Source: Porphyromonadaceae bacterium CG2_30_38_12 (lineage in GTDB: Bacteria > Bacteroidota > Bacteroidia > Bacteroidales > Paludibacteraceae). From it: a stretch of DNA of 42,069 nucleotides. Below are positions 7,301 through 32,144 of the stretch, piece after piece. Within the stretch, counting starts at the first letter, position 1. The number at the start of each line of letters is the position of its first letter. Where the stretch lies: assembly GCA_001873635.1 (NCBI GenBank), contig MNZK01000026.1:1-42069 (forward strand), read 5' to 3'. The translations under genes and the position numbers were made by a program. Under the pieces are notes generated by a model. It worked only from the letters and a program-made list of their open reading frames with translations, was not told the DNA's origin and searched no databases.

Positions 7301-7638
7301 TACCAGCGTCCTTGTTTGACATATTCCTGTACTTTTATAAACAATTCAGGATAATATTCTTTCATCATTTGGTACCTACGCGAACCGGTAAAATTAAATA
7401 CATAGTCGGGATATTTCTCAAACAAACTGAAATTCTCGGTCATTGTTTTCGGAATAAATTCGTTAATGGTGGTCGGATAATCCCAGTTCCATTCTGTATC
7501 TATATGTGCATAACCCACTGTGTAGAGCAAACGATCTTTTGCAATTTCATACTTTTCGGTTTTATGCAACGATTGTGCGTTAGAAAACTGAAAGAGAAAT
7601 GAGAATAAAATGATTTGAATAATTCTTGTCCTTTTCAT
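4380..7638 (-). CDS. GH38 alpha-mannosidase, interrupted by a frameshift
   Basis: The gene encodes an exo-alpha-mannosidase of about 1085 residues if one frame change is allowed. The first part (7638 to about 6744) has a signal peptide ending NAQ, the metal-site motif GYAHIDTEWNW (H45, D47) and the nucleophile motif LPDCFGF (D158). It then reads TPEIRKKTSCLFW and stops. The other frame continues as KLPVYSGDLLLIEHSAGSM and carries the conserved HMHDILPGTSI block (about 6515-6545) and the long beta-sandwich C-terminus. The switch falls on a run of eight A in the coding strand (6744-6751), so a one-base indel, real or from sequencing, explains it. Ribosomal or polymerase slippage is an alternative. 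The stop overlaps the next GH2 start by 4 bp. The rest of the gene is undamaged. Confidence 0.9.
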
Positions 7639-10700: not shown

Positions 10701-11518
10701 TTCGATAAATTATTAATTGTCATTTCTATCTTTAGCTCTGCATTCCGATAATTTTCGTCTAAATCGGTAGTTGCATACCAATCTGAAATTTGTATATTGG
10801 GCTTTGCATACAGCCACACATCGTCGAAAACGCCCGCCATACGCCAATAATCCTGACACTCAAGGTACACACCGTCTGAGTATTTAATAACTTTTACGGC
10901 AAGCAGGTTTTTGCCGGAGTTCACAAATTCAGTAATGTCATACTCAGCAGGTTCTTGCGCGCCTTCGTTGTAGCCCACTTCTTGTCCGTTTACCCATACA
11001 AACGAAGCTGAGGCTGTTTTTTCCATGCGCAAATAGATGCGTTTTCCTTTCCAGTTGGAAGGCACACTAAAGCTTTTGCGATACAAACCGGTGGGGTTAT
11101 ATTCGCGTGGGACGAAGGGTGGATTTGATTGGAAAGGATGAACTTCATTTCGAAACAGTGGGTCGCCAAAACCTTGCATCTCCCAGTTGGATGGAACATT
11201 AATGAGTGACCATTTTTTGTCGTTATATGCATGTGTAAAAAATTCCATTGGTGCATCTTCGGGCGTGTTGGAAAAATTAAATTTCCACATGCCGTTGAGC
11301 GATATGGCATGTGGAGAGTTCACTTTATTATAATTAAGTGCTTCTTTTACTGAATTATAGCTAAAGCAGCGCGTGTGAGCTTCGGTCTGATTCAATTTGA
11401 ACAACTCAACATTCTCAATAAAATGATAAATATCATTAAATTGCGATTGTTGTTTTTGTGCTGCAATGCGTAAACTTACTATACAAAATAATACTAAAAT
11501 TGTTCTTTTTGTAGTCAT
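7749..11518 (-). CDS. GH2 beta-galactosidase-like enzyme with internal LamG domain, frameshifted
   Basis: With one base restored the gene encodes about 1256 residues. The ATG at 11516-11518 starts MTTKRTILVLFCIVSLRIAAQ, a signal peptide; the upstream in-frame start is only a TTG. The first frame holds the GH2 sugar-binding and Ig-like domains and the acid/base E in WSAGNESGEG. It runs out of frame after VDSRP. The second frame resumes with LFMDEYLSVAGNGGGG, whose E is the predicted nucleophile. The break is at a C4 run (9890-9893), about four codons before the nucleophile, so the unrepaired product lacks it. A concanavalin-like LamG domain (about 9240-9670, motifs LTVSIWVYP and WHHITAVYNG) is inserted after the barrel and is followed by the beta-galactosidase C-terminal domains. 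It is preceded by the SGNH gene with a 31-bp gap. Confidence 0.88.
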
Positions 11519-11549
11519 TTGAACGTTAATAATTATGGGATACAATCAA

Positions 11550-15926: not shown

Positions 15927-18188
15927 TCATTCCAAAAATGATTCTAAATTCATTGAAAACACCATTCCCTTTTTATCCGACATGGTAAATTCCAGTTTTC
16001 CACCTTCCAGCAGTTGTTGGTGGGTGATAGATCCATTGTTATAATCTTTTCCGTTCAATTTCACTTTTTCAATGTAGATATTTTTATCTCCAAAGTTCTT
16101 AGCTTTTACAGCAAATGTCCTCTTATTGGGCAGATTTATAGCAACTTCCGCGAATTCAGGCGTTCCAAATACATATTTCCCATCAGCAGGATTGACCGGA
16201 TAAAAGCCCAATACACTGAAAACATACCAAGCCGACATTTGTCCCATGTCCTCATTTCCACAAAGTCCATCAGGTTTATTGGAATACAAGGTGCTCATTA
16301 TTTCGTGAATTCGTTCTTGCGTTTTCCAAGGTTGGTCCACAAAATTGTAGAGGTACGCCACGTGATGACTCGGTTCATTTCCATGCGCATACTCGCCAAT
16401 CAAACCCGAAACATCAATCGGTTTGCCTTCCAAACTGGAGGTTTCTACTGTGAATAAAGCATCTATTTTATTTGCCAAAGCTTGTTTGCCACCAAAAATT
16501 TCAATTAATCCGGGAACATCGTGTGGCACAAAAAGCGAATACTGCCAAGAATTTCCTTCTACGAAATCGCATTTTTCGTACGAAGCGAAAGTGGGGTCAA
16601 AAGGCTCTACAAAATTTCCTTTGGCATTTTTACCACGCATAAACTGTGTGTTTTTGTCGAACACATTCCGGTAGGCTTGCGACCTTTTGGTGAAATAGGC
16701 ATAATCTTCTGTTTTGCCTAATGCTTTTGCCATCTGAGCAATACACCAATCATCATACGCATATTCCAGCGTTTTTGAAACCGATTTGTTTTCTAAGTCG
16801 GTAGGAATGTAATTGTACTTTTTCAAGAACTGAATGCCAAAAGTATCTTGCATGGCACTGGTTTTCATGGCTTCGTACGCTTTGTTCACGTCAAACCCTT
16901 TAATACCCTTGAAGTAAGCGTCCGCAATTACCGGAATGGAATGATAGCCAATCATGCAGTTGGTTTCGCTGCTGCAAAGTGGCCAAATTGGGAGCAATCC
17001 ATATTGGTCGTATTGTGCCAACATGCTGTTAATCATATCGGGAACCATTTGAGGCTGAACAATGGTAAGCAGCGGATTCAATGCCCTGAAAGTGTCCCAA
17101 AGCGAAAGTCCCGTGTAATTAGTAAAGTTATCGGCCGTATGAATTTGTTTGTCAAACCCACGGTATCGTTTGTCGGTATCACTGTAGGTATATGGTGCTA
17201 TACACGAATGGTATAAAGCAGTATAGAAGGTTTCCAGCTTTTCGCGGTTGTCGGATTTTACGGTGAATGATTGCAGTATTTTTTCCCATTTTTGCTCGGC
17301 TTGTTGTTTCACTTCGGCAAAATCCCAATTCGCAATTTCGGTATCCACATTTTTCAATGCACCATCAATATCTACTTCCGAAATACCCACTTTCGATTGT
17401 AAGGGTTGATTATTTTCTGATTGAAACGTCAATGCCACTTTCACATCTTTTCCGGTAGCATCGGTTTTATTGTCGGCTAATTTTCCATCCACAAAAAGCT
17501 GAATATCATTAATTTTTTTAGAAAAACGAGCAGCAAAAAACACCTCGTGATTGACCCAGTCTTTTTCTTGTTTCTCGCCCCAACCTCTCGATTTGCGTGA
17601 GCCAACTATCAAACTGTCATTTACAATCTTCAAATTTCCGTAAGAAATAATATCCGATTTTAGGCTGTGAAAAAGGTCAATCATCACCTTTTGTTCACTT
17701 TTTTCGGGATAAGAATATTGGTGAAAACCAGCACGTGTGGAAGCGGTCAATTCTACTTCAATCTTGTATTTGTCGAGCAATACTTTATAATATCCCGGCG
17801 AAGCAATTTCGTTTTTGTGCGAAAATGGCGACCTATACCCTTTTTCAGGATTTTCGCGAGTTCCGGCTTCAAAATTGGTTTCACCTGTAAATGGCATAAA
17901 CAACACATCGAGCAGTTCGCCACGCCCCGTTCCACTCAAATGGGTATGACTAAAACCGATGATGCTACTGTCGGAATAATGATAACCGGAGCACCAATCC
18001 CAACCTTCGGTATGGGTATCGGGACTAAGTTGCACCATTCCAAACGGAACCGTGGCTCCGGGAAATGTATGCCCGTGACCGGCAGTCCCGATAAAAGGAT
18101 TTACATACTCCGTAAGGTTTGATTTTGAATTCTTACACGAAGTGAATACAAAAATTGAGATAACTGAAAAAAAAATTATTCGTTTCAT
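15927..18188 (-). CDS. GH92 exo-alpha-mannosidase, lipoprotein
   Basis: The 753-residue protein starts MKRIIFFSVISIFVFTSC, a lipoprotein signal with the lipidated Cys at 18. GH92 signature blocks follow in order: NPFIGTAGHGHTFPGATVPF, GWDWCSGYHYSD, GFSHTHLSGTGRGE, GNEPSHHVAYLYNF, and CGNEDMGQMSAWYVFS. GH92 enzymes are calcium-dependent inverting exo-alpha-mannosidases. Linkage specificity (1,2, 1,3, 1,4 or 1,6) cannot be read from these motifs. The ATG lies 14 bp after the GH27 stop, so the two are surely co-transcribed. Membrane anchoring suggests action at the inner face of the outer membrane or on the cell surface. Confidence 0.95.
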   Translation of the reverse strand: MKRIIFFSVISIFVFTSCKNSKSNLTEYVNPFIGTAGHGHTFPGATVPFGMVQLSPDTHTEGWDWCSGYHYSDSSIIGFSHTHLSGTGRGELLDVLFMPFTGETNFEAGTRENPEKGYRSPFSHKNEIASPGYYKVLLDKYKIEVELTASTRAGFHQYSYPEKSEQKVMIDLFHSLKSDIISYGNLKIVNDSLIVGSRKSRGWGEKQEKDWVNHEVFFAARFSKKINDIQLFVDGKLADNKTDATGKDVKVALTFQSENNQPLQSKVGISEVDIDGALKNVDTEIANWDFAEVKQQAEQKWEKILQSFTVKSDNREKLETFYTALYHSCIAPYTYSDTDKRYRGFDKQIHTADNFTNYTGLSLWDTFRALNPLLTIVQPQMVPDMINSMLAQYDQYGLLPIWPLCSSETNCMIGYHSIPVIADAYFKGIKGFDVNKAYEAMKTSAMQDTFGIQFLKKYNYIPTDLENKSVSKTLEYAYDDWCIAQMAKALGKTEDYAYFTKRSQAYRNVFDKNTQFMRGKNAKGNFVEPFDPTFASYEKCDFVEGNSWQYSLFVPHDVPGLIEIFGGKQALANKIDALFTVETSSLEGKPIDVSGLIGEYAHGNEPSHHVAYLYNFVDQPWKTQERIHEIMSTLYSNKPDGLCGNEDMGQMSAWYVFSVLGFYPVNPADGKYVFGTPEFAEVAINLPNKRTFAVKAKNFGDKNIYIEKVKLNGKDYNNGSITHQQLLEGGKLEFTMSDKKGMVFSMNLESFLE

Positions 18189-18202: not shown

Positions 18203-19360
18203 TTATTTTAATATAAAGAATTTTACGGAATGACCTTGTATTTTAAGGGTTTTGGTTGATTTTACCGTACCTGAATTTATTCCATTCCAAACATCAAAAA
18301 GTTGACGATTTTGTTTTATGCCAAGTTCCTTCCAATCAATTTCAAACGTAAATTCTTTATCGTTTCTGTTGAAAAATATTACCGCAGTTCTATTATTCGA
18401 CATTTTTTTGGACCAAACTTCAAAATCACCTTCATCATAAATTTTACTTCCCTGTATGCCCAATTTGTCTTGATTTACTTCAATGGCATATTTATTCAGA
18501 AGGATACTTTTCGTTTTTTCATCCATTTTGCGTAAGTCATTTCCTGTAATTAAAGGAGCTGCTAATAAGCACCAGAAACTGAAATGAGCTTCTTCCTCAT
18601 TGTATGTCATTTTTCCATTTCCAACTTCCAACATATCAGGGTCATTCCAATGTCCGGGTCCGGCAAATTTTTCGAGACCTTCCTGTTTGTCTAAAATCAA
18701 AGCCCATCCCATTCCGCCCCATGACGTCTTGCAATCATAGCAATTAACTATATCTGCTGTAGTGCGCCAAAGATGACCTACATTTTGTGCCCATTTATAA
18801 GGACGACTTGAGCCCCACTCGCATAAACTGAAAACTATTGGGCGACCAGAGTTCGCTAATGCTTTACTCATATCGGTATAAGCCTTAATAGGTTCTATTC
18901 CATCTGTATAGCACCAGTCGTATTTCAAATAATCTACGCCCCACGAAGCATAAGTATTAGCATCAATTACTTCGTAGCCATTTCCACCCGGACGTTTTTC
19001 ACATGTAAGCTTTCCGGCACAGGAATATATCCCGAATTTCAGTCCTTTGGAATGAACGTAATCTGCCAACGCTTTCATCCCCGATGGGAAAAGTGTTGAA
19101 TCAACCACGATTGTACCATCAGCTCTGCGGGCAACCTGCCAACAGTCGTCAATTACGATGTATTCATACCCAACTTTATTCATACCTGTCGAAACCATAG
19201 CATCAGCGGCCACCATAACTATTTTTTCGCTAATATTACAGGCGAATTTGTTCCAACTGTTCCATCCCATTGGTGGAGTGAGGGATAGATTCTGTGTTTT
19301 TTGAGCAAAAACGCTCGTTCCAAAAAATAAGAATAATAAGATTGAAATTTGTTTTTTCAT
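18203..19360 (-). CDS. GH27 alpha-galactosidase (copy 1), secreted
   Basis: This 385-residue enzyme has a signal peptide (about 1-19, ends VFAQ), then the GH27 start block LTPPMGWNSWNKFACN, VIDDCWQ, KFGIYSCAG, and the nucleophile D148 in YLKYDWC. The acid/base region is GHWNDPDMLEVGNG (about 236-249). A short C-terminal beta-sandwich ends the protein. The architecture is minimal, with no binding module. It is a clear paralogue of the gene at 24675-25844, sharing nearly all motif blocks. It would remove terminal alpha-galactose. A beta-L-arabinopyranosidase or alpha-N-acetylgalactosaminidase, also in GH27, are less likely alternatives. Confidence 0.95.
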   Translation of the reverse strand: MKKQISILLFLFFGTSVFAQKTQNLSLTPPMGWNSWNKFACNISEKIVMVAADAMVSTGMNKVGYEYIVIDDCWQVARRADGTIVVDSTLFPSGMKALADYVHSKGLKFGIYSCAGKLTCEKRPGGNGYEVIDANTYASWGVDYLKYDWCYTDGIEPIKAYTDMSKALANSGRPIVFSLCEWGSSRPYKWAQNVGHLWRTTADIVNCYDCKTSWGGMGWALILDKQEGLEKFAGPGHWNDPDMLEVGNGKMTYNEEEAHFSFWCLLAAPLITGNDLRKMDEKTKSILLNKYAIEVNQDKLGIQGSKIYDEGDFEVWSKKMSNNRTAVIFFNRNDKEFTFEIDWKELGIKQNRQLFDVWNGINSGTVKSTKTLKIQGHSVKFFILK

Positions 19361-19462: not shown

Positions 19463-20758
19463 TTATTTGATTTGTTTTATATTGAAATAATTAAATGAAT
19501 TTGAAGTAGAATCGGGTGTGATCTTTAAATTTTTAAAATGAACCAACTCTCCATTAGAAGCATTAACAACAACATCAGGACTTGCAACATCGAAAGTAAC
19601 ATGATCAAATTTGATGGATTTAAAATTGGTGGCATCAAAAAATTTAGCCGAACCCAATTTTGCATCTTCAAAAACCGGAGGTTCAATGTATTTACCTCCA
19701 CGATGGCTAAAACTTGAGTTTTTTATGTTCAATTGAAAATCCTTATTATTTCCACCATTAATATAAAAAGCCGTTCCAATAACTTTTGCTCGTACATTCT
19801 CAAAACTTACAGTAGAAACTGGTTGACCGGTTTGCCACAAACCATTATTAAAATTATACATGTACACAAAATCAACGTTATCAATAGTTACATCTTTTAT
19901 AATCCAATTACCACTTACAATTTTTGAATTTTCGTCGTCGGGCGAAAAGTGGGCAAAGGCACACAACATATTCTTACGTTTTGATATTTTATGAATATAT
20001 TGTGCGGGACCCCAAAATTCACATCTTTCTACTCGGAGATTTTTGCAACCCATACGGATTCCATTACAAGCACTGTTAATTCTACAGTCAGTTATCGAAA
20101 AATTTTGGTTGTCATTTCCGGCAAAAGCATCGTCGCCTGTTCTGAAATCACAACCAGAAACGGTGAAATTGTCGCAAAATCGTGTATGAAGTCCATCATG
20201 GCCTGCCCTAATCTTGACTCTTTCCACATTTCCAAAAGAACAATACCTCATATTGAGTCCCCAGTTTGCCGAATTTTTAATCGTAAAATCCTTAAGTGAA
20301 ATATGTTTGCAATTGACGAATCTTATACAATGTGGTCCGCGAAATCCTTCCTCTCCATCACTATTTCGGCAATTCACACCATCAATTGTACCTTCTCCCT
20401 GAATGGCAATATTCGAGAGGTCTTTACCATAAATAAGAGCATCATTTTTATAATCTGCATATTTATCACTTCCCTGAATAAGTGTACCCTTTTCCAATCG
20501 TAGTGTTACATTGCTTTTTAGTTCAATACCACCTGTACGGTAAATTCCCGAAGGAAAAATCACTACGCCTCCACCTTTTGCAGCACACGAATCAATAGCA
20601 TTTTGTATAATTTGGGTCATTAATCCCGTTTGGCCGGATTTGATAGTAATTTGTGTTTTTTCTGAATTGGGATTTTGCATGGATAAAGTAATAAGGCAAA
20701 ACAATCCCATGGCTACTATCAATATCCAAGGTGATTTCAACTGTGATTTCATTTTCAT
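19463..20758 (-). CDS. GH28-like right-handed beta-helix protein
   Basis: I chose the ATG at 20756-20758 (MKMKSQLKSPWILIV), because the longer frame starts only with TTG. A hydrophobic signal segment is followed by KSGQTGLMTQIIQNAIDSC and VVIFPSGIYRTGGIELKSN, the usual opening of GH28/pectate-lyase beta-helices, then repeated helix coils. The GH28 double-Asp block is present as FRTGDDAFAGN (about D209/D210). The NTD position reads HDGLHT, and the HG and RIK motifs are not visible (NGIRMGCKNLRVERC is at that place). It could be a polygalacturonase-type hydrolase with altered specificity, a lyase, or an epimerase-like beta-helix. It begins 50 bp after the upstream gene ends, so operonic. Confidence 0.75.
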   Translation of the reverse strand: MKMKSQLKSPWILIVAMGLFCLITLSMQNPNSEKTQITIKSGQTGLMTQIIQNAIDSCAAKGGGVVIFPSGIYRTGGIELKSNVTLRLEKGTLIQGSDKYADYKNDALIYGKDLSNIAIQGEGTIDGVNCRNSDGEEGFRGPHCIRFVNCKHISLKDFTIKNSANWGLNMRYCSFGNVERVKIRAGHDGLHTRFCDNFTVSGCDFRTGDDAFAGNDNQNFSITDCRINSACNGIRMGCKNLRVERCEFWGPAQYIHKISKRKNMLCAFAHFSPDDENSKIVSGNWIIKDVTIDNVDFVYMYNFNNGLWQTGQPVSTVSFENVRAKVIGTAFYINGGNNKDFQLNIKNSSFSHRGGKYIEPPVFEDAKLGSAKFFDATNFKSIKFDHVTFDVASPDVVVNASNGELVHFKNLKITPDSTSNSFNYFNIKQIK

Positions 20759-20808
20759 TTTATATTTTAAAATAATTGTTATCAATGATTTATTTAATTC
20801 TCAGTATC

Positions 20809-23800
20809 TCATTTTTCCACACCAAATTCCACTTCATTTGCCCAATGTTCTTTCCACGAAGCATGAAAAGCGCGGGAATTCTTTTTGGAAACGCTGCGAT
20901 CGCGTGACAATTCCATGCAAGCGCCTCCGTTTGCATCATCATTTACACGGAAGGAAAATTTAATAGTTTTACCTTCATCGAGTGCTTTTTTCACATCGGG
21001 CAATTCGCTCCACGGAATAGCACATTCGGTAATTCGGGTACTTCCTTCGTGGGTTATGGCCAATTTCCCATTTTTCACGGCTCCATCAAAAGGTGATTTG
21101 GGCTGACGCGGATAAAAATGCTTTTCGGGCATTCCGGGCACCAATAATCGCCATATCTCCGTGCCACCACCATATTCCGGAGCAACCTGATTGAGCGCGT
21201 ATTCATAATCTGTACACTTGTAACCAATGTAGCGCGGCATGGTTCCTTTGGCGGTGGAGCCGTAGCCGTCGTCACCTATCGGAATCACGTTAAAGGCAAT
21301 TTGAACATTATCAGATGCAAATCCCAATCCGGAACTATTATCGGGCAACACCGGATCTTTGCGGTACGAAAAAAGACGAACACCTTCGGGCCATTTCAAT
21401 GGAATCAGCACATTGGTATCGGTTGCATTGGCAGGGATTCCAGCAGGCATTTTTGGTTCACTTCCAAACACCCAATATCCTTCTTTGCCATACACATTTT
21501 TCCAGTTTCCTTTGGTGTCAAAATCTTCTTTTACAAAGAATGCGGATGTTACGTTATTGGTGCATGTGATCGTTTTATCAAAGAAAACGCCAGCCAACTT
21601 CACATTGTACCACCAGTCACCTTTAAAAGTTACCCGAACATTGCCCGATAGTTCAAACACCAAATAGCAGCCGTCCCAAAGTTTATTACAGCTCTGAGAA
21701 AGGAGCAATGCGTTGGTATTCAAATCAAAAACATCTACCAGCGTTTTTTGCGTATCAATATTGGGAAGATAAAATGCCACCTGAGTAGCTTTATCCGATG
21801 GTAAATTCAAATCAATTCCGAAACCAATGTTATTGGCATCAGGTTCCCAATAGCTCATGATACGACCCGCTCCGGTGGGATGTTGCAATGCTGACTGATC
21901 ATTTTCATTCGCATCACGTTTTCCGTCCTTTTTCCGAAATGAAAGATTGGCATCGGGTTTGTAAGCCACATCGGGATAGAAAAATTCATCGTCATTCCGT
22001 GTTTCAAAACGATACGTTCCAGGATGAGGTGTATTGTCGGCCACCTTAGCGGCAAAATAGAAGTATTGTTCATCATACGCCAAGTACCCATTTGCCATTC
22101 CTTCAGCTTTCGTATCGAATTGTTTGAACGGATACCACGCAGCTTCTGTAACCGACAGACTCGCTTTACCTGCTGTAACCGTCAGTGGAAAAGTATTTGT
22201 CCATTCATCAAGTTTTCCATCAATGATAGGTGTACGTCTCGAAATGACATTTACGTGCATGTTTTCCTCGTGTGAAGCTTTGCCATCTTTTCCGGCATCG
22301 AATAGTACTTCGAGCGGATAAGTATTATCGGGTGATGTTTTTCCACCAGTTATCTGAACTTGTAAAGTTTTGGTTTCATTGGCTTTCATTGTCAATGATT
22401 GGGGAGCATTTAACTCCAGTCCTCCTAACTTAACATTCAATATTCCTGAAACCGGTCGGTTCAGAATATTTGTAATCTGCAGCTCCATAATTGGTTTTTG
22501 CTCAATGCGCCGAACCATATCCTTAGCCACTATTTCTACCGGTTCGTACCCTTCAATTTTTCCTTTTTTTAATGCTGAAATTAAACGTGCATACGAACCT
22601 TTGGAACCGTCTGTCCGCAAAAAATAGCCCTGAAAGGTGAGCGGTATCACAATTTTATTCTCCTTCGTTGCCACCGGATTTCCATAAAAATCGTACAACG
22701 TAAAAGTTGGATCATCGTTTATGGTCATTTTTCCATTGGTCAGTGCATTGTATTCACCGAGTTTTCTCAAAAGATCTTTTCTTTCATGTGAATCGGATGG
22801 TAGTTCTGCCAATTTTCTACGCATTTCATCCTTTTTGGCAATTTCATTCAAACCTCTGACATCTCGAAAAAGTACATTTTCGGCACCAAATGCTTCGCCA
22901 ATATCTCCGATTACTACTACCGTTCCATCATCCGGATTGTTCTTGTATCCTTCAAAACTCATCACCCACGGAAGTCCGTTTTTAAACAACAATTCCTTGA
23001 AATCGCGCTCACCTATATTGTGTTGAACGGCACCCATGGCAGCCGCAGGAGACCATACCGATGGTATTGCTTCTATCTGTTTTCCACCATCCTTAGTGCG
23101 AATCCGTTGTTTTGCTCCACTATGTTCACGCGAAATCATATATCCGCCATAAATTCCCATGGAGCGATCGTAGCCTGCCGACCGGTTGGTAGCTACTACG
23201 GTAGCAATGCGGTCGTCGGTATTTCCAACCCAACTTTCGGTGTCCCAAATTAGTACGCGTCCTTTGTGATCTTTTCGGTTGTTCCACTGCGGATACAAGC
23301 AAGGCGATTCCATTCCCTGATAATGGATGGAAAGGAAATCGAAAATAGGTAGAAAATCCATTTTCCCGTCGGAAAAAAGTTTGTCCCATGCGTTTGAGTT
23401 GGAGTCGCAACCGCCAATCAGCACATCAGCACCTTCTTTACGAGCTTCCAACACTCCGTTGGCCATGGCCGTGTAAATTTCACGATACCGAAGCATGTCC
23501 GACTGCCAACCCGAGATGGAAATACCCTCCCAAGGTTCGTTCCACAAGTGTACGCCGGTAACGCAGCCCTTCGGCCATCCGTTATTCGTGCATATATTTT
23601 TTACAAATTTCTGAAAATCATTATCTAATTCCGGAAGCCATACATAATCCTGTTTGGTTTTCAAAAACACGTTTTTATCATCCAGAAACGAGCGAGGATT
23701 ACCCAGCGGAATGAGCGCCGGACCTTCCATAAACATCAATAAAACAGTAATATTTTTGTCCTTATATTCTTTCAATTTCCGATTGAGCTTTTCCATTTCC

Positions 23801-24423
23801 GAAACATAATCGCGATGGGTTGTCGGAATATAGGATATTCCCATGCGAATGGCCTGAACACCAATACGGCTCAGAAAATCAGCTCCCAAATCGTCCAACG
23901 CCTGTTTTGGATATTGAATGGCAGTTGGGGTTGGTTTAAATGTCCGCACCACACTGCTTGCCAACCTGCGACCCTGTTTTCCCAAGTCGAAAACAATGGC
24001 GTAACCTCCAAAAATTTCGGGTAGTTTGGGTTCAACATCAATATCTACAAAACCATTGGCGGCTACATTAATTTTTAGTGAAATAGATTGTATTTCTGCT
24101 ATTTTAAACATTTCGGGCAACCAAATATCGTTTGGAATACCTTTGGAGCCGTAGTTGATTAGTTCCACTTTGGCGTCAACAGAAATAGCTGTATTGGTAT
24201 TGTTGACCAATTGGAAGGTGAATGTTGCTTTTTCACCCGGCCAGAAAATATTGGCAGGGGACGAAGTTCGTATGCAAGTCACATCGAAATCGTATAAACG
24301 TTGGTTGTTTTTTACACCCATTACCGTTTCGTAATTCAGCCATTCTTCTGGTGCCCGCATTTGAGCAAAAGATTGAATTAGAGATAGTAAAACGAAATAA
24401 AATACAAGAACAGTTTGTTTCAT
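20809..24423 (-). CDS. Putative clan GH-A glycoside hydrolase of unassigned family, with CBM9-like C-terminus
   Basis: This is a 1204-residue secreted protein (signal about 1-20, ends SFAQ). Residues 40-170 look like an Ig-type beta-sandwich (ATFTFQLVNNTNT). A TIM-barrel-like region follows: FLSRIGVQAIRMGIS, ITVLLMFMEGPAL, VTGVHLWNEPWEG with E296, then IFDFLSIHYQG and RVLIWDTESWVG with E396. The Asn-Glu-Pro and the later Glu, 100 residues apart, fit the acid/base and nucleophile of clan GH-A. After about residue 735 (RRTPIIDGKLDEWTN) the rest resembles a CBM9/DOMON-like domain, probably extended or duplicated. I cannot assign a CAZy family. It lies 50 bp upstream of the GH28-like gene. Catalysis on a plant-type polysaccharide backbone is inference. 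Confidence 0.7.
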   Translation of the reverse strand: MKQTVLVFYFVLLSLIQSFAQMRAPEEWLNYETVMGVKNNQRLYDFDVTCIRTSSPANIFWPGEKATFTFQLVNNTNTAISVDAKVELINYGSKGIPNDIWLPEMFKIAEIQSISLKINVAANGFVDIDVEPKLPEIFGGYAIVFDLGKQGRRLASSVVRTFKPTPTAIQYPKQALDDLGADFLSRIGVQAIRMGISYIPTTHRDYVSEMEKLNRKLKEYKDKNITVLLMFMEGPALIPLGNPRSFLDDKNVFLKTKQDYVWLPELDNDFQKFVKNICTNNGWPKGCVTGVHLWNEPWEGISISGWQSDMLRYREIYTAMANGVLEARKEGADVLIGGCDSNSNAWDKLFSDGKMDFLPIFDFLSIHYQGMESPCLYPQWNNRKDHKGRVLIWDTESWVGNTDDRIATVVATNRSAGYDRSMGIYGGYMISREHSGAKQRIRTKDGGKQIEAIPSVWSPAAAMGAVQHNIGERDFKELLFKNGLPWVMSFEGYKNNPDDGTVVVIGDIGEAFGAENVLFRDVRGLNEIAKKDEMRRKLAELPSDSHERKDLLRKLGEYNALTNGKMTINDDPTFTLYDFYGNPVATKENKIVIPLTFQGYFLRTDGSKGSYARLISALKKGKIEGYEPVEIVAKDMVRRIEQKPIMELQITNILNRPVSGILNVKLGGLELNAPQSLTMKANETKTLQVQITGGKTSPDNTYPLEVLFDAGKDGKASHEENMHVNVISRRTPIIDGKLDEWTNTFPLTVTAGKASLSVTEAAWYPFKQFDTKAEGMANGYLAYDEQYFYFAAKVADNTPHPGTYRFETRNDDEFFYPDVAYKPDANLSFRKKDGKRDANENDQSALQHPTGAGRIMSYWEPDANNIGFGIDLNLPSDKATQVAFYLPNIDTQKTLVDVFDLNTNALLLSQSCNKLWDGCYLVFELSGNVRVTFKGDWWYNVKLAGVFFDKTITCTNNVTSAFFVKEDFDTKGNWKNVYGKEGYWVFGSEPKMPAGIPANATDTNVLIPLKWPEGVRLFSYRKDPVLPDNSSGLGFASDNVQIAFNVIPIGDDGYGSTAKGTMPRYIGYKCTDYEYALNQVAPEYGGGTEIWRLLVPGMPEKHFYPRQPKSPFDGAVKNGKLAITHEGSTRITECAIPWSELPDVKKALDEGKTIKFSFRVNDDANGGACMELSRDRSVSKKNSRAFHASWKEHWANEVEFGVEK

Positions 24424-24674: not shown

Positions 24675-25844
24675 TTATTTTTTTACACGGAAAAAAACCA
24701 CAGAATGACCATCAATTGAAATAGTTTTAATTTTTTTTGTTGTACCTACTTCACTGTGTTTCCAAATGTCAAAAACCTGCTTATTTCCTTTAATTCCTGC
24801 CTTTTCCCAATGTGCTGGAAAATCATATTTCTTTTCATTCCGGTTGAAAAAAATAACTGCTACATCGCCATTGTGAAGTGGTTTGCTCCAAATTTCAAAG
24901 TCTCCGTCATCGTATACTTTTTTTCCCTGAATACCGGCTTTGTCCTGATTTACGGCAATGGCATCTTTGTTGAGTAGTATGTTTTTTATCGAATCGCTCA
25001 TGTTTCTCAGGTCGTTGCCAGCCATCAAAGGTGCTGCAATTAGACTCCAAAAACTGAAATGAGCAATATATTCATTGTATTTCATGTGTCCATTACCAAC
25101 TTCAAGCATATCCGGATCATTCCAATGACCAGGTCCTGCATATTTCTCAAGTCCAACTTGCATATCGAGAATAGTTGTCCAACCCATTCCTCCCCAGTCT
25201 CTCTTGCAATCCCAGCAATCCTGAATATCTGCAGTTGTACGCCAGAGGTGTCCTACGTTTTGTGCCCAAATGTATGGTCGGCTCGTGCCCCATTCGCACA
25301 TACTAAAAACAATCGGCCTTCCACTTTTTGCAAGTGCATTGCTCATATCGGTGTATGCTTTAACCGGGTCAATACCAGCCGTATTGCACCAGTCATATTT
25401 CAGGTAATCAACTCCCCATTCAGCATAGGTATTTGCATCAATCACCTCGTATCCGTGGCTTCCTGGACGTTCTGCACAGGTTCGTGTACCTGCACAAGAG
25501 TAAATTCCGAACTTTAAACCTTTGGCGTGTATGTAATCAGCCAACGCTTTGATACCTGAAGGAAAATTGACTGAATCAGCTACGATTTTGCCTTTGGCAT
25601 CGCGTGCAATCTGCCAGCAGTCGTCAATAACAATGTATTCATAACCAGCTTCTTTAAATCCGTTTGTAACAAAGGCATCGGCTACTTCTTTAATCAACTT
25701 CTCGTTGACATTACAGCCGAATTTATTCCAACTGTTCCAACCCATTGGTGGAGTGGGAACTAAATTTTGTGTTTTTTGCGCAGTTGAAGTAAGACTGACA
25801 AAAAGGATTACTAAAAAAAACATTTTGTTCATACCTAAAATCAT
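24675..25844 (-). CDS. GH27 alpha-galactosidase (copy 2), secreted
   Basis: This 389-residue enzyme has the same layout as the GH27 at 18203-19360: signal peptide (about 5-22, ends TAQ), VPTPPMGWNSWNKFGCN, VIDDCWQ, KFGIYSCAG, the nucleophile D151 in YLKYDWC and GHWNDPDMLEVGNG. The second Met (MNKMFFLVILF, 25832) gives a more normal signal peptide and may be the true start. Differences from copy 1 lie mostly in the surface and C-terminal sandwich segments, so the copies may favour different linkages. It follows the decayed ribokinase gene by 54 bp and is itself intact. Confidence 0.95.
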   Translation of the reverse strand: MILGMNKMFFLVILFVSLTSTAQKTQNLVPTPPMGWNSWNKFGCNVNEKLIKEVADAFVTNGFKEAGYEYIVIDDCWQIARDAKGKIVADSVNFPSGIKALADYIHAKGLKFGIYSCAGTRTCAERPGSHGYEVIDANTYAEWGVDYLKYDWCNTAGIDPVKAYTDMSNALAKSGRPIVFSMCEWGTSRPYIWAQNVGHLWRTTADIQDCWDCKRDWGGMGWTTILDMQVGLEKYAGPGHWNDPDMLEVGNGHMKYNEYIAHFSFWSLIAAPLMAGNDLRNMSDSIKNILLNKDAIAVNQDKAGIQGKKVYDDGDFEIWSKPLHNGDVAVIFFNRNEKKYDFPAHWEKAGIKGNKQVFDIWKHSEVGTTKKIKTISIDGHSVVFFRVKK

Positions 25845-25898: not shown

Positions 25899-26840
25899 TT
25901 ACAATTTTTTACTCAATTTATATTCAACCATAAACCTATCAATTTCCACACGAGTTTGATACGATGGGATAGTATCGGGCTTTGTACAAGCCAACGCACC
26001 CACCGCATTGGCAAAACACATGGCATTTTCGATGGACATTCCCTCTGCAAGTCCTACCGCAAGTCCGGCATTGAAAGCATCGCCCGCACCGGTTGAATCT
26101 ATCACATTATCTATTCGGAATGGTTCAGCAATAATTTGTAAATCATTATTAACCAATAAGCTGCCTGATTCACCAAGCGTTATCAGCGCATTTTTACATC
26201 CAGTTTTCAGAATCTGTTTGGCAATTTCCACTTCGCTGCTTTTATCCAACGGATTTAGTCCAACACAAATTCGGGCTTCGGTTTCGTTGGGCGTTAAATA
26301 ATCAACAAATGACAAATCGAAAGCAGTTAAATTTGCAGCAGGAGCCGGATTGAGAATGACTTTAGCACCTTTTTCCTACGATTTTTGACCAGCATATATG
26401 GCTGTAGCAATAGGTATTTCTAATTGTAAAACCACTATAGTATCACTATCTACTATACTCATAGCTTGGTTTATATGATTTTCATCAAGCGAATTTAAAG
26501 CCGAAATATCAATGGTAATAATATTGTGACCATCGGACGAGCAAATTATAAAACCACATGCAGTAGGAAAATCGTTTGTCTGAAAAAGATATTTTGAATT
26601 AACACCTTCATCTTTTAATAAACCAAAAATATTGTCGGCAAAAGCATCCTTACCAACCATACTCACAAAAGCTGTTTGTGCACCCAAACGAGCCGCCTGC
26701 ACAACCTGATTAGAACCTTTTCCGCCCCATGTTTAACGAAAATTAGTACCTATCAATGTCTCGCCCTTCGATGGAATACGCTCGGTATCCATAACGAGGG
26801 CTTCAATATAACTTCCTATGACTACAATTTTCTTACTCAT
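25899..26840 (-). pseudogene. Ribokinase-family sugar kinase with two nonsense codons
   Basis: A single continuous frame of 314 codons, starting with ATG at 26838-26840 (MSKKIVVIGSYIEALVMD), encodes a PfkB/ribokinase-family kinase of normal length. Two in-frame stops break it. TAA at codon 36 (26733-26735) sits in NFR-stop-TWGGKGSNQVVQAA, and TAG at codon 155 (26376-26378) sits in AGQKS-stop-EKGAKVILNPAP. Both are one C-to-T change from Gln codons. The catalytic block DSTGAGDAFNAGLAVG and the ATP-site region are otherwise perfect, and no frameshift is present. It follows the aldolase remnant by 13 bp. Likely substrate was ribose or deoxyribose. The decay looks recent because the rest of the sequence is still well conserved. 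Confidence 0.9.
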
Positions 26841-26853
26841 ATTCAAAAAAGAA

Positions 26854-27416
26854 TTAATAGTTTGAACTACTTCCGGCCTTTTTCATTATAATATCCAATC
26901 CGCTACTTGTACCTGTAAGCTGGGCACCAGCATCGAAAAGGGCTACCATTTTTTCGTACGAATTTACTTTCCCCGAAGCTTTTACTTTACATTCGGAACG
27001 TACGTTATCGAAGAGCAATTTTATGTTTTCGGGAGTTGCATCACCACCACCAAAAGGTGATCCACTCGAATTTTTAATCCAAACAAAACCCGCATTATCA
27101 AAAATTTTAATGGCTTTAATTTTTTCTTCCAACGTGGGAATCAAGCCTAATTCAAGCATTGGTTATATCACAATGCTTTTCGAAACATCGAGCATAGCTT
27201 GCGCTTCTTTCGCAAAAAAATCATAATCACGTGATACAAAAGCACTCATATTAGGCTGATAATCTACTTCATCTGTACCAATTTCCACGCATTCCTTCAT
27301 CAAGGCAATTTTTGCATTCAGCGTTTCGTGTCCCATGCCAAAACCGAAGAAAGTAGCCAATTTCACATCTGTTCCTTTTAATATTTCTTTACCTAACGTT
27401 ACATAATAGTCATAGG
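26854..27416 (-). pseudogene. deoC: Deoxyribose-phosphate aldolase, N-terminally truncated with a nonsense codon
   Basis: From about 27416 the frame reads YYVTLGKEILKGTDVKLATF, GHETLNAKIALMKECVEIG, TDEVDYQPNMSAF, then SIVI, a TAA (27160-27162), PMLELGLIPTLEEKIKAIK, WIKNSSGSPFGGGDATPEN and VKASGKVNSYEKM. This is DeoC, including both lysine regions around the Schiff-base site. The first roughly 45-50 residues are missing and the sequence is joined there to a transporter fragment. The stop lies in the same frame as the rest, so it is one nonsense change. DeoC converts deoxyribose 5-phosphate to acetaldehyde and glyceraldehyde 3-phosphate. Pairing with the adjacent kinase suggests a former deoxyribose pathway. 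Confidence 0.88.
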
Positions 27417-27482
27417 TAAAATAAATGAACCTTGAAGAATACCTGCAATAAGCACCAATGAAATTCCAATTGTTTGTTCCAT
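27399..27482 (-). pseudogene. 5' fragment of a membrane sugar transporter gene (RhaT-like)
   Basis: ATG at 27480-27482 opens a 27-codon frame, MEQTIGISLVLIAGILQGSF followed by ILPMTIM and a stop. The first transmembrane helix and the QGSF-LP pattern resemble the start of RhaT/GRP-type sugar transporters. The frame ends where the aldolase sequence begins (about 27405-27420), so a deletion appears to have fused the two genes. It starts 37 bp after the propeller lipoprotein stop. The family call rests on 27 residues and is tentative. Confidence 0.45.
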
Positions 27483-27519
27483 AATGATAGTTGTTTTTAT
27501 ATGTATGCTTTGACAAAGT

Positions 27520-28536
27520 TTATTGAAAACTTTGCCATATCCCATTTGAATAATGAGAAATACCATTGCCTGTTCCAAACCATATTGACCCGTCCAAATC
27601 CACTGCTATAGTATAAACCTGATTGTTAACCAAACCATTTTTTGTTGTGTAGTTCTTCCAACTATTTCCGATAAGTGTACTTATTCCTTTGTCAGTGCCA
27701 ATCCATATTTTCCCCTTATGATCTTTATTAATAGCGTAAACTGTATCACAAATTAATCCATCTACATGCGAATAAGAAGTCCAATCTGATTTTGTATTTG
27801 GACTGGAATGATAAGCCATTCCTCTATTTGTGCCATACCATTGATGAGAATCTTGGTCAACAAATACGGTAAATACTGTATCAGACTTTAACCCATAAGC
27901 CCAAGGCTGATTATAGGTTGTGGCTCCTGTAATCGCATCGGTATATTTAAATCGTGATACACCGCCGCCTTTTGTTGTTGCATATACCCAACCATCATTT
28001 GCCGAAGCAATAGAAGTAATTTTAAATTTTGAAAGATTTTCTTCTCTCTTCCGTCCAAAAAAATTGGTCCATTTATTATCCTTTAAAATTGACATTCCTT
28101 TCGAAGTACCAATATATTTAATTTTGTCATTACTGATGTTTACGGCTAAGATATTATTATCCAGCAGACTGTCTTCTACTACATTGTAATTGTCAAATGA
28201 AGCAAAGACATTGTTTTTAACAGTAAATGATGTTGCACCTATATTTGTGCCCATCCATATTTTATCCCTTATTGAATCATTTTCTAATGCAAGATCGTTT
28301 ATTGCTAAATCACTTAAATACATATTTTCAGGATAAACAGACCATTTCACTCCATCATAACTAACCAATCCTTTTGCCGTGGCTATCCATTTTACTCCCT
28401 TGTTATCAATTACTATCTTATTTATGACATTTGATGGCAACTTAAAATCAGCTTCTTTTTTGATATCTGTATCACAACTAATCAGAATAAAAGAAAGAAC
28501 GATAAAACTATGATATTTAAAATTAAATAATTTCAT
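27520..28536 (-). CDS. Lipoprotein with Reg_prop-type beta-propeller blades
   Basis: The 338-residue protein has a lipoprotein signal, MKLFNFKYHSFIVLSFILIS then C21. The rest is made of repeated blades of the kind found in the sensor half of hybrid two-component regulators: GVKWIATAKGLVSYDG, IKYIGTSKGMSILKD, WVYATTKGGGVSRFK, HQWYGTNRGMAYHSS, GKIWIGTDKGISTLIG, GSIWFGTGNGISHYS. No histidine kinase or DNA-binding part follows; the protein ends with the last blade. It starts 10 bp after the T9SS CBM9 gene stops. A glycan-binding surface protein or a detached sensor domain are the likely roles. It is intact while the genes right behind it are decayed. Confidence 0.85.
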   Translation of the reverse strand: MKLFNFKYHSFIVLSFILISCDTDIKKEADFKLPSNVINKIVIDNKGVKWIATAKGLVSYDGVKWSVYPENMYLSDLAINDLALENDSIRDKIWMGTNIGATSFTVKNNVFASFDNYNVVEDSLLDNNILAVNISNDKIKYIGTSKGMSILKDNKWTNFFGRKREENLSKFKITSIASANDGWVYATTKGGGVSRFKYTDAITGATTYNQPWAYGLKSDTVFTVFVDQDSHQWYGTNRGMAYHSSPNTKSDWTSYSHVDGLICDTVYAINKDHKGKIWIGTDKGISTLIGNSWKNYTTKNGLVNNQVYTIAVDLDGSIWFGTGNGISHYSNGIWQSFQ

Positions 28537-29735: not shown

Positions 29736-32144
29736 TTATTCTAGTCGCAGTTCAGCTTTTTCATATCTATTTGTGTTGCACAGATAGACTTCAGGTTTCA
29801 TTTCTGCTAAATTTTTGTCGGTTGATAATAGCATAACTTCAACCTGCTTTCCTTCCAGATTCGTATCTACCGGGATATAAAAAGTGAAATTCTTATCTGG
29901 AATACTAAAATGTTCCCAATTGTTGTATTTAAAGGATGGTGCACGATTATTCGCTGCAATTACTTTTCCATTCACAATCATAAAGGCGAAAGCACTTTCG
30001 TCAATACAATTTACAGGAAATGTTACAGAAAGGTAAGCACCTTTAGCTATTCCTGTGAGTTTTCCTGCATATTTCCAGCACAATTTCACATCGTTATCTT
30101 TTTTGAGGCTAAACAAATTTGATGCTTTCCATTTATCCCGATTCACGTATGATTTACCGGAAATACCTTCAACTTCTCCAACTTCGGTTGGGGATTTTGC
30201 CAAACGTAAATATCTGAATGATTTCTTTTTGTTTAAATCAATTATCAATTCACCTTTGTTAAGTTGATATTTTACTTGAATCCATACTGACAAATCTGTT
30301 GAGATTTCGACTCTCTCAGGATTAAAGTTTGCAGGAATCCCTTTAAAGACAATCTTATCCATTGATTTATTTTCGCCAATATCCAATCGGAAAGAACCGT
30401 TATTTTGCCTAAGATTTGAGTAATCGTACAATCGGACTTTAAATGCCGTGTTCATATTGCCATCAAAAGCATATTTATCCCACACACCAATACCAGTAAA
30501 AAGAGTGTCGTTAAAGAATACATCGCGACAAGTTTGAACTTGTGCAATTTTTGTTTGGCCTGAATTCGTTAATTCACGTACTTCAAGTGGATTATTATCA
30601 ACAGCAAAATTGCATGATTCAATATATTTTGATGAATTAACTGGAATAATTGACGGTTGAAGTTCACCAAGTTTGTTTATATATTTTATTTCATTTGTTT
30701 TCCCTGGAAATGTATAAGCAACTTTATTCCCTGTCAGAACAGAAGAAATATCTTTTCCGTTTATGCTTGCTTTTTTATATTTCCGATAATTATCGGATAA
30801 AGAGAAATAAACTTTTTCACCCTCAGCACCCAAAAGATTGATTAAAACTGGTTGCTTGGGAATATTTTTTACCACCTGATAATTACCACCTTTTAGTATT
30901 AATTCAGGATTTGGCTTTGTTGAAACTTTGATTAAACAGGTACGGAAAGGCAAAACGGTAACCTTTACTTCAGAACCTTGATGGTAAGTACCCATAAATT
31001 TTTCAACAGGATGATACTGCAATACTTCAACATCACCACTGGATTGTAATCCTACAGAAGCATCAAGCGTAATCGGAATCTCAATCGATTGCCATGAAAG
31101 GTTTCGTAAAGTAATCAGACGGGTGGAACTGTCACCACGTGAGACTGCAAATTTTCCATACTTTTCTTCGGGTAAAACGATTCCTTGCACCATAATATCA
31201 TTATATAAACGATGAATATTATAGATTCTGGCAAGACGTGGCAGTTCTGCATCAGACAATAAAAATGGATTGCCATAAATTTCGGGAGATAAAATCAGGT
31301 TTCTATTGAATGCTTGTAAAATCAAATCATCATCCCATGCATCAAGAGCCGAAGAAAAGCAAACCCCATGATCTTCAGTCAAACGAAGCAAATCGGGAGG
31401 TAATCCCCTTGAAAGGTTCATTGCCCGATGATGTGGTGCAGGAGTTTCGTTCGATATATTAACATCAACATAGGTTTCACGCCCTTCCCATAAAAAAGTA
31501 GTTGTTTGTTTGCGGGCTTCTTCATTGAGTGTGATGCGATGGTTCAAAACAATTAAATCGGGACTATACTTACGACATTCCTTCATTGTTTCAATAAAAT
31601 TTCCTTGGTTTTCGGGACTTAAATCAGAGCAACAAGCATCAAATTTGAATAATGCAAAATTATATTCCTTGGCAAATTTAATCAACATGTCTTTTCGCTT
31701 TTGGGCTTCACTATCGGAGTTTCCATAGCCATCAGGGCCAAGCCAAACTCCAAGGCGACAATCAAATGATTTTGCAAGATTTGCAAGCAGTCCAAACCCA
31801 TTAGGAAATTTACGTTTAAATAAATCTGTTTCTAAAGAGCCATAAGCAGGCAACCCAATTTCTTCAGCACAATTTGGTCCCTGGTCAACGTCAGCAGCAT
31901 CCATCAAATAAATATCAAGCTTCATTCCATATTCGTCATGCAGCCATTTAAAAAACTTGAGATTTGCTTCAATTTTCTTCTCGTTAGAGCCATACCAGTT
32001 ACGATTAATCCAGTCGAAATAGATTGATTTTGAAGGAGTAAAATTATTGATGACTTTGTCAAGTTGCGTTAATTTTTGAGCTTGATTATTCGTGCAAATT
32101 AAAAGCATCAAACTAATACGCAAAAGGAAAAAGGATTTCTTCAT
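29736..32144 (-). CDS. Putative glycoside hydrolase resembling the GH27/GH36 barrel, family unassigned
   Basis: This 802-residue secreted protein (signal about 1-22) opens with a barrel: SIYFDWINRNWYGSN, MKLDIYLMDAADVDQGPN, CRLGVWLGPDGYGN and ALFKFDACCSDLSPE. The last block aligns with YLKYDWC of the GH27 neighbours and makes D169 the candidate nucleophile. The following TTTFLWEGRETYVDVN (E220, E223) replaces the WNDPDML acid/base region. A beta-sandwich follows the barrel. Residues about 560-680 resemble an F5/8-type-C (galactose-binding-like) domain: YAFDGNMNTAFKVRL and FRYLRLAKS. I cannot place it in a known family. It could be a divergent alpha-galactosidase-like enzyme or act on another alpha-linked sugar. 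It is 79 bp downstream of DUF362. Confidence 0.65.
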   Translation of the reverse strand: MKKSFFLLRISLMLLICTNNQAQKLTQLDKVINNFTPSKSIYFDWINRNWYGSNEKKIEANLKFFKWLHDEYGMKLDIYLMDAADVDQGPNCAEEIGLPAYGSLETDLFKRKFPNGFGLLANLAKSFDCRLGVWLGPDGYGNSDSEAQKRKDMLIKFAKEYNFALFKFDACCSDLSPENQGNFIETMKECRKYSPDLIVLNHRITLNEEARKQTTTFLWEGRETYVDVNISNETPAPHHRAMNLSRGLPPDLLRLTEDHGVCFSSALDAWDDDLILQAFNRNLILSPEIYGNPFLLSDAELPRLARIYNIHRLYNDIMVQGIVLPEEKYGKFAVSRGDSSTRLITLRNLSWQSIEIPITLDASVGLQSSGDVEVLQYHPVEKFMGTYHQGSEVKVTVLPFRTCLIKVSTKPNPELILKGGNYQVVKNIPKQPVLINLLGAEGEKVYFSLSDNYRKYKKASINGKDISSVLTGNKVAYTFPGKTNEIKYINKLGELQPSIIPVNSSKYIESCNFAVDNNPLEVRELTNSGQTKIAQVQTCRDVFFNDTLFTGIGVWDKYAFDGNMNTAFKVRLYDYSNLRQNNGSFRLDIGENKSMDKIVFKGIPANFNPERVEISTDLSVWIQVKYQLNKGELIIDLNKKKSFRYLRLAKSPTEVGEVEGISGKSYVNRDKWKASNLFSLKKDNDVKLCWKYAGKLTGIAKGAYLSVTFPVNCIDESAFAFMIVNGKVIAANNRAPSFKYNNWEHFSIPDKNFTFYIPVDTNLEGKQVEVMLLSTDKNLAEMKPEVYLCNTNRYEKAELRLE

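Follow-up and report, generated by a model that had tools for sequence, protein, structure and literature searches.

A Candidate Clan GH-A Glycoside Hydrolase Family of Bacteroidota with a Split, Permuted C-Terminal Tail

Introduction

To which glycoside hydrolase family does a 1204-residue protein belong when it carries the glutamate motifs of clan GH-A and no family assignment, and on which glycan would it act? This question is raised by P0001, a gene in the window, which denotes here the whole stretch of 42,069 nucleotides that was analysed. In our judgement, the explanation that accounts best for the results, with a probability of roughly 60% when taken as a whole, is that P0001 encodes a retaining clan GH-A glycosidase of a separate family, remotely related to GH39 and GH5, which acts, probably in the periplasm, on a glycan containing uronate and alpha-mannose. 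With P0001, a new family of glycoside hydrolases has a concrete candidate.

Results and Discussion

Gene and domain layout

The open reading frame of P0001 occupies positions 20809–24423 and starts with ATG. Its position and length of 1204 residues agree with an earlier sequence-only reading, which did not give the strand; it is the minus strand, on which all the features described below are also located. Residues 1–21 (24361–24423) form a putative signal peptide without cysteine, as read from the sequence and the alignment, and Q21-M22 is identical in all 15 alignment rows that reach this position, so that the protein would be exported. The Pfam scan found no T9SS tail domain in the 1204 residues, while other proteins of the window do have one. 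Because the signal peptide contains no cysteine and a T9SS tail domain is absent, action at the cell surface is not indicated, and the enzyme is probably located in the periplasm.

The Ig-like domain that had been expected before the barrel is present in the AlphaFold model as an all-beta domain at residues 46–160 (23944–24288), delimited approximately from the DSSP assignment and the pLDDT, where the ten-residue pLDDT means are 66–91 apart from a single block at 43. It is followed by a putative (beta/alpha)8 barrel at residues ~165–525 (22849–23931), which was assigned from the order of strands and helices, the profile matches to GH39 and GH5, and Foldseek, and by a region that is beta-rich in the AlphaFold model at residues 526–730 (22234–22848).

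Catalytic glutamates and the barrel model

The two glutamates pointed out earlier, E296 in LWNEPWEG (23536–23538) and E396 in IWDTESWVG (23236–23238), were found as described, exactly 100 residues apart, and both are invariant in the 16 rows of the alignment A1, which consists of the window protein and 15 relatives. Both are also present in the homologue L014 and in the two pieces of L015, a homologue that is split; the sequences of L017 and L019 do not include these sites. Within residues 327–682, E396 is the sole glutamate that is fully invariant in A1, and the basic residues R405, R414 and R420 that follow it are invariant as well.

The barrel-only model (numbering +149) contains the strands beta2 (191–196), beta3 (226–231), beta4 (288–293), beta5 (335–337), beta6 (363–365), beta7 (391–394) and beta8 (424–428); it is a weak model, with a mean pLDDT of 58 and no beta1. 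The invariant NEP of the WNEP motif follows strand 288–293 and is aligned with the NEP of GH39 and GH5, which corresponds to the Asn-Glu(-Pro) feature of clan GH-A. The WDTESW motif with E396 is preceded by the modelled strand 391–394, where the local pLDDT is ~41. The earlier placement of both glutamates on barrel strands is borne out in part: the order of strands and helices fits a barrel, which would be closed in the native protein, but the confidence of the model is low. In the proposed mechanism, E296 at the end of strand 4 would serve as the acid/base and E396 at the end of strand 7 as the nucleophile of an exported multidomain enzyme, and hydrolysis would proceed by double displacement, which would place the enzyme in the retaining class with respect to the anomeric configuration.

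Relationship to known families

P0001 has no match at the cut-off in Pfam, NCBIfam, PHROG or the PDB sequences, where the Pfam queries were the full-length protein, each of the 16 members and domains cut out singly, and the PDB was searched with the protein and its profile. A literature search at the level of records gave no described family that could be tied to the protein. The statement of the sequence-only reading that a clan GH-A type enzyme is present without a family match thus holds across these libraries, and the separateness of the family is judged against them. The Pfam model of GH39 (PF01229) gave nothing at E ≤ 0.001 in the genome of the window and no match at E ≤ 0.1 in the 16 members. 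The GH5 model Cellulase (PF00150) matched one member, one of the three barrels scanned, with 16 bits compared to the cut-off of 23.5, and the PF00150 match of the window's own genome is on another contig. For PF02055 (GH30), PF02449 (GH42) and PF01301 (GH35), any match in this genome at E ≤ 0.001 is also on other contigs.

In the profile comparison using HHalign, the barrel alignment matched GH39 (18 of 18 loci) first, with a probability of 84.7% and a score of 53.7, and GH5 (20 of 20 loci) second, with 59.1% and 43.0, where the reading frame of each locus was the one covering the match; the top scores in 30 shuffles were 26.9 for GH39 and 23.6 for GH5. The GH39 alignment runs from the NEP to beta7 and places T395-E396 over the TE of the GH39 motif HYTEW, the position of the GH39 nucleophile, and the GH5 alignment spans the region before beta2 up to the NEP. 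These results vary with the sequence set used. A smaller set of 15 GH39 sequences gave 85.7%, but the alignment ended at LYPQW, where the GH39 TEW was placed instead of on E396, and parts of this set alone gave 60.3, 5.4 and 4.5%; 3.5% came from an earlier GH5 set (15 of the 20 loci) in which the wrong frame had been picked at least twice. No relation to the barrel appeared in the HHalign probabilities of GH30 (0.3; 16 of 16 loci), GH42 (3.9; 14 of 16) and GH35 (0.1; 4 of 6), sets for which the match ends were guessed. The corresponding values were 1.8 for GH2, 0.2 for GH140, and 0.1–0.5 for GH27, GH92, GH28, GH88, SusD-like proteins and the neighbour cluster c8, using the longest frame per locus, which is the wrong gene for at least L059 and L066.

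The comparison of folds pointed in the same direction. Using the barrel-only model, Foldseek ranked PslG at positions 1–3 (PDB 4zn2, 5bx9 and 9g17, which we take to be GH39), with E-values from 3.9e-7 to 5.8e-7 and TM scores of 0.35–0.36. The ten matches at E ≤ 0.001 comprise PslG, heparanase, GanA, GH5 mannanase, GH158 and GH35, all presumably GH-A families. The clan GH-A type assumed from the motifs is accordingly upheld by the invariance of both glutamates and by the GH-A families being nearest both by profile and by the fold of the weak barrel model. The full-length AlphaFold model (pLDDT 61) was too loose for this purpose, and its matches were a mixture of GH2 enzymes, glucanotransferases, dextranases and others, with query-normalised TM scores of at most 0.15 among the best 50 matches listed.

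The protein shares with PslG and GH39 the NEP after beta4, the DFxSxH segment at beta6 and, in the alignment with all 18 loci, the TE at beta7, and this family comes first in both fold and profile; however, it is not matched by the Pfam model of GH39 at E ≤ 0.001 and adds the Ig-like domain and ~680 residues after the barrel. The likeness to GH5, second by profile with the set of 20 loci, spans the first barrel half as far as the NEP and includes the weak Pfam match of one member, whereas that match is below the PF00150 cut-off and occurs in a single barrel. Because neither Pfam model reaches its cut-off, the protein was filed in neither GH39 nor GH5.

C-terminal tail

The motif IIDGKLDEW begins at residue 733, from which 472 residues remain to the C-terminus. 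The CBM9 model PF06452 matches at E ≤ 0.1 in six of the 16 members, below the cut-off of 23.4 bits in both the window protein (18.7 bits) and L005 (21.5 bits). Two segments of the profile CBM9_1 match in order: positions 28–58 match in L005, at the place corresponding to the first part of the domain in P0001 (residues ~733–805, 22009–22227), and positions 113–159 match residues 1121–1171 of the window protein, in the second part (residues ~1037–1204, 20812–21315); the borders of both parts are estimated. Unlike CBM9, this domain is split by ~230 residues that contain another domain, at residues ~838–1003 (21415–21912). The two halves of this inserted domain both match an unnamed accessory domain of proteins that have Pfam matches to GH78 (L023), GH101 (L025) and, below the threshold, GH99 (L026), but in P0001 they stand in reverse order and are nested inside the CBM9-like domain. 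As read from the sequence, the tail appears to be a split CBM9-like domain enclosing an accessory domain whose halves are circularly permuted. The earlier description as a CBM9-like tail of ~470 residues was right as to its length and its start, and the CBM9 likeness is supported below the Pfam cut-off, while the architecture proved more complex, with a split and a permuted insert. The tail may bind the glycan through its CBM9-like domain, and the permuted nested domain offers a clear example of how binding modules are rebuilt.

Distribution and neighbouring genes

Homologues were found at 19 loci, all in Bacteroidota, in a single pattern scan covering 84,980 genomes, with identities of 54–85% in the best segments; a full-length homologue in another genome (L001) has 80% identity. 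No relative was found on the viral contigs or the plasmids searched. The hosts include Parabacteroides faecis, Niastella yeongjuensis, three Chitinophaga species and Dysgonomonas sp. 520, and with such named strains and a small set of recurrent partners, the activity and substrate are testable.

Directly downstream of P0001 is a GH28 gene (19463–20785; Pfam E-value 8e-12), whose cluster occurs in eight of the 20 loci. GH88 occurs in nine, never together with GH28, and the difference corresponds to one change on the tree. This exclusive pairing suggests two chemical solutions for one glycan and, if true, would help to pin down its uronic acid. The GH92 alpha-mannosidase gene (15927–18188; Pfam E-value 3.3e-187; TIGR01180) has its motif in 14 of the 20 loci; GH92 is missing from six, some of which are shortened by contig ends. 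Short forms of 338–441 residues account for three of the 15 GH92 proteins, and the GH92 protein of L009 lacks much of the catalytic domain. Two further genes are homologues of GH27-type alpha-galactosidases, assigned by cluster alone: one at 18203–19360, which clusters with a Melibiase_2 protein of L009, and the upstream neighbour at 24675–25844.

Judged from these neighbours, the target would be a heteroglycan or an oligosaccharide that also bears uronic acid and alpha-linked mannose. GH92 would take off the mannose, and the uronic acid would be handled by GH28 in the lineage of the window or by GH88 in the other; the GH88 class acts on oligosaccharides. A more specific version, which we put forward tentatively and at somewhat less than even odds, is that the new family has a specificity of its own and cleaves a bond within a so far undescribed glycan that contains uronate and mannose, that the uronate partner was swapped once between GH28 and GH88, often together with a further protein without assignment, and that the permuted accessory domain lies inside the CBM9-like domain.

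Alternative explanations

The same similarities could be produced by a very divergent, PslG-like GH39 enzyme, which CAZy would place, or already places, in GH39 or a subfamily. The first rank of GH39 by profile, the position of E396 on the GH39 nucleophile and the top rank of PslG in Foldseek speak for this, but we consider it unlikely, given the silence of the Pfam GH39 model in the genome and in all members and the additional relation to GH5, which is as expected for a separate family within the same clan. A decayed barrel in a binding or structural protein, to which the split relative L015 might point, is very improbable, since both glutamates and the surrounding motifs are kept in all 16 rows.

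The remaining alternatives concern the action of the enzyme. An enzyme that opens a polysaccharide backbone, supplying the endo-enzyme otherwise missing from the PUL, had been proposed from the sequence, and it would act at the cell surface. Endo-action is known among PslG, heparanase and GH5 mannanase, all of them fold neighbours, and the long C-terminal region may bind glycan. This proposal found no support and is improbable, with a signal peptide without cysteine, no T9SS tail domain, an adjoining GH28 protein and GH88 in its place at nine of the 20 loci. An exo-enzyme acting on the uronic acid itself, of the beta-glucuronidase or iduronidase type that occurs in GH79 and GH39, is a rather doubtful alternative; heparanase among the fold matches, the three invariant arginines and the uronate-related partners are consistent with it, but GH28 or GH88 may already deal with the uronates. 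A separate, probably periplasmic clan GH-A family remains the reading that we prefer.

Further observations

The neighbour c8, present in six of the 20 loci, was considered as a lyase and keeps no assignment; it showed no profile relation to 16 heparinase II/III or three DUF2264 proteins, in sets built from the longest frame per locus, and no PDB match. Xanthan, diatom glucuronomannan and Malvaceae-type mucilage, the last being a candidate substrate from general background, were considered as substrates, and the literature favoured none. Passages of PMC9723552, in which neither "GH88" nor "GH28" occurs, tie glucuronomannan to PULs with GH92.

Putative catalytic residues and family comparisons

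The most probable reading of the target is a retaining glycosidase of clan GH-A that is exported and acts alongside an alpha-mannosidase and a uronate-acting enzyme. The target gene (20809-24423, minus strand) is a single intact ORF of 1204 residues on contig C70; the host genome comprises 118 contigs totalling 2.63 Mb and is 82.6% complete. The protein contains the motifs LWNEPWEG, with the putative acid/base E296, and IWDTESWVG, with E396. In an alignment of the window protein and 15 relatives, N295, E296, P297, E299, E315, E326, H367, Y368, W393, D394, T395 and E396 are invariant in 16 of 16 rows, and E396 is the sole fully invariant Glu between residues 327 and 682. This invariance, together with the clan GH-A rule for locating the nucleophile Glu, makes E396 the natural nucleophile candidate. 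Both Glu motifs are likewise borne by the homologue at locus L014 and by the two pieces at L015, and the partial homologues at L017 and L019 were left out of the count.

No match to the target was found at threshold in Pfam, NCBIfam and PHROGs, nor among PDB sequences. Cellulase (PF00150) gave a sub-threshold match of 16 bits against a cut-off of 23.5 in one of the three barrels scanned, that of L009. Searches of the host genome with the Pfam models of GH39, GH5, GH30, GH42 and GH35 did not reach the target gene at E ≤ 0.001.

The barrel alignment was compared by HHalign with family proteins taken from the sampled genomes, where the main comparison used matching frames from every locus at which such a frame was found. 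The values were 84.7% (score 53.7) for GH39 and 59.1% (score 43.0) for GH5, and the maximum scores in a column-shuffle control (n = 30) were 26.9 and 23.6, respectively. In the same comparison, GH42 gave 3.9%, GH30 0.3% and GH35 0.1%. In separate comparisons, GH2 gave 1.8% and GH140 0.2%, and GH27, GH92, GH28, GH88, SusD-like and c8 proteins gave 0.1–0.5%. The GH39 match extends from the NEP motif past β7 and aligns T395-E396 with TE in the HYTEW motif of GH39, the known nucleophile site of that family; the GH5 match covers the barrel start to NEP.

Several comparisons count against these placements. A smaller GH39 set reached 85.7%, but its alignment ends at LYPQW, at a column that cannot be catalytic because Q, V or E occurs there; parts of this set gave 60.3, 5.4 and 4.5%, and a GH5 set containing wrong frames gave 3.5%. 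In earlier sets, known GH-A families ranged from 0.2 to 99.7% against each other, so that a low HHalign value does not exclude a relation. The target is assigned neither to GH39 nor to GH5, since the Pfam models of both families fail to match it, and it probably works like the enzymes of these families.

Predicted fold and location

The AlphaFold models had a mean pLDDT of 61 for residues 22-1204 (18 sequences) and 58 for residues 150-640 (19 rows). The barrel elements are correctly ordered in the model, with strand 288-293 followed by E296 and strand 391-394 by E396; the local pLDDT of strand 391-394 is about 41, and barrel strand 1 is missing. In a Foldseek search with the barrel model, PslG, a GH39 enzyme, occupied ranks 1-3 (E = 3.9e-7, 4.3e-7 and 5.8e-7; TMq 0.35-0.36). 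It was followed, among the 10 matches with E ≤ 0.001, by heparanase (GH79), GanA, a GH5 mannanase, GH158 and GH35. At weaker E values, GH30 and others were mixed with non-GH-A barrels.

The signal peptide contains no Cys and no T9SS tail was found in the target, which favours a periplasmic location.

Architecture of the tail

The IIDGKLDEW segment begins at residue 733. Two parts of the CBM9_1 profile match the tail below cut-off and in profile order: positions 28-58 near residues 775-805 (in L005) and positions 113-159 at residues 1121-1171 of the window protein. The interval comprises 55 profile positions, against more than 300 residues in the target, and holds a domain matched in three proteins of other genomes, namely L023 (with a GH78 match), L025 (GH101) and L026 (sub-threshold GH99). 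In all three, the part resembling residues 957-1003, which is weak in L023 (i-E 0.14), precedes that resembling residues 838-953, the opposite of the order in the target. At the level of sequence, the inserted domain is circularly permuted and nested within a CBM9-like domain.

Distribution of relatives

A single scan of 84,980 genomes turned up 19 loci, with best segments 54-85% identical to the target; since the scan relied on short patterns, this is a minimum as regards species. All are from Bacteroidota, going by titles, and the hosts include Prolixibacteraceae, Paludibacter, Mariniphaga, Parabacteroides faecis, Tannerella, Dysgonomonas, Coprobacter, Niastella and Chitinophaga. L014 and L017 are probably one gene, as they hold its front and back at contig ends of the same Mariniphaga assembly. 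At L015 (9974-13632), the Coprobacter secundus homologue is broken into two overlapping frames.

The target is uncommon among the sampled genomes. It was found in one of 395 genomes of the phylum sample (its own), in two of 395 of the class sample (one with a short C-terminal stretch only), and in three of 60 near relatives (one with C-terminal stretches only); in a same-genus genome, the gene lies on a contig of 6314 bases. The barrel was found in two of 295 genomes of the order sample, the second as a split gene. Searches of viral contigs and plasmids found no relatives.

Gene neighbourhood

The context survey covered these 19 loci and the window, with flanks of up to 10 kb, several ended by contig ends. 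GH92 was present at 14 of the 20 loci (counted via an N-terminal motif, Pfam-confirmed in the window and L009), GH88 at nine, GH28 at eight, GH27 at seven and c8 at six; the GH28 and GH88 assignments follow cluster membership, one protein of each cluster having been scanned with Pfam. L002 has an additional related 763-residue protein outside the GH92 count. GH28 and GH88 never occur together (0/20). Neither was seen at L014, L016 and L019; L017, the probable back of the L014 gene, has GH28 and GH92.

In a tree of 18 target proteins (L017 and L019 absent, two rows without a GH28/GH88 label), one branch with support of 100/100 parts the GH28 from the GH88 set. The distribution requires one change, and none of 500 shuffles was as low. 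Since the two sets form the two sides of one branch, the putative uronic-acid partner was exchanged once. GH92 is found on both sides.

The order SusD-GH27-esterase-GH88-c8-target-GH92 occurs in the Niastella locus and three of four Chitinophaga loci (SusD by reading). The c8 protein, of about 600-650 residues (e.g., L009 8182-9987; also L008, L011, L012, L015 and L018), is confined to GH88-type loci, each time immediately upstream of the target homologue. Its conserved motifs include EYNSPTYT and GQWCGPNLR; neither Pfam, at threshold, nor the PDB yielded a match to it. Short GH92 genes (338-441 aa) adjoin the target homologue at L008 (13612-14628), L009 (13636-14955) and L018 (13627-14952); in that of L009 the N-terminal domain is kept, and the catalytic domain is present only in part. 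In Parabacteroides faecis (L005 13701-16808), a GH92-like ORF of 1035 residues is about 280 longer than most others. It may connect the GH92 cluster with DUF4380-type proteins of other loci, and may therefore be a fusion.

Other genes of the window

Broken genes lie between the PUL genes at 25899-27530 (minus strand), where a pfkB-family kinase extends over two frames, with a Pfam match in each piece and in-frame stops. The stretches upstream resemble an aldolase of the deoC type and the beginning of a RhaT-like transporter; Pfam gave no match for the two aldolase-like pieces. A GH38 alpha-mannosidase (4380-7638) and a GH2 protein with a laminin-G insert (7749-11545), both on the minus strand, each fall into two pieces in overlapping frames, through either real decay or assembly errors. 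The 802-residue protein at 29736-32144 (minus strand), with no Pfam or NCBIfam match at threshold, is perhaps a further unassigned glycosidase, and its homologue adjoins the target homologue in L002.
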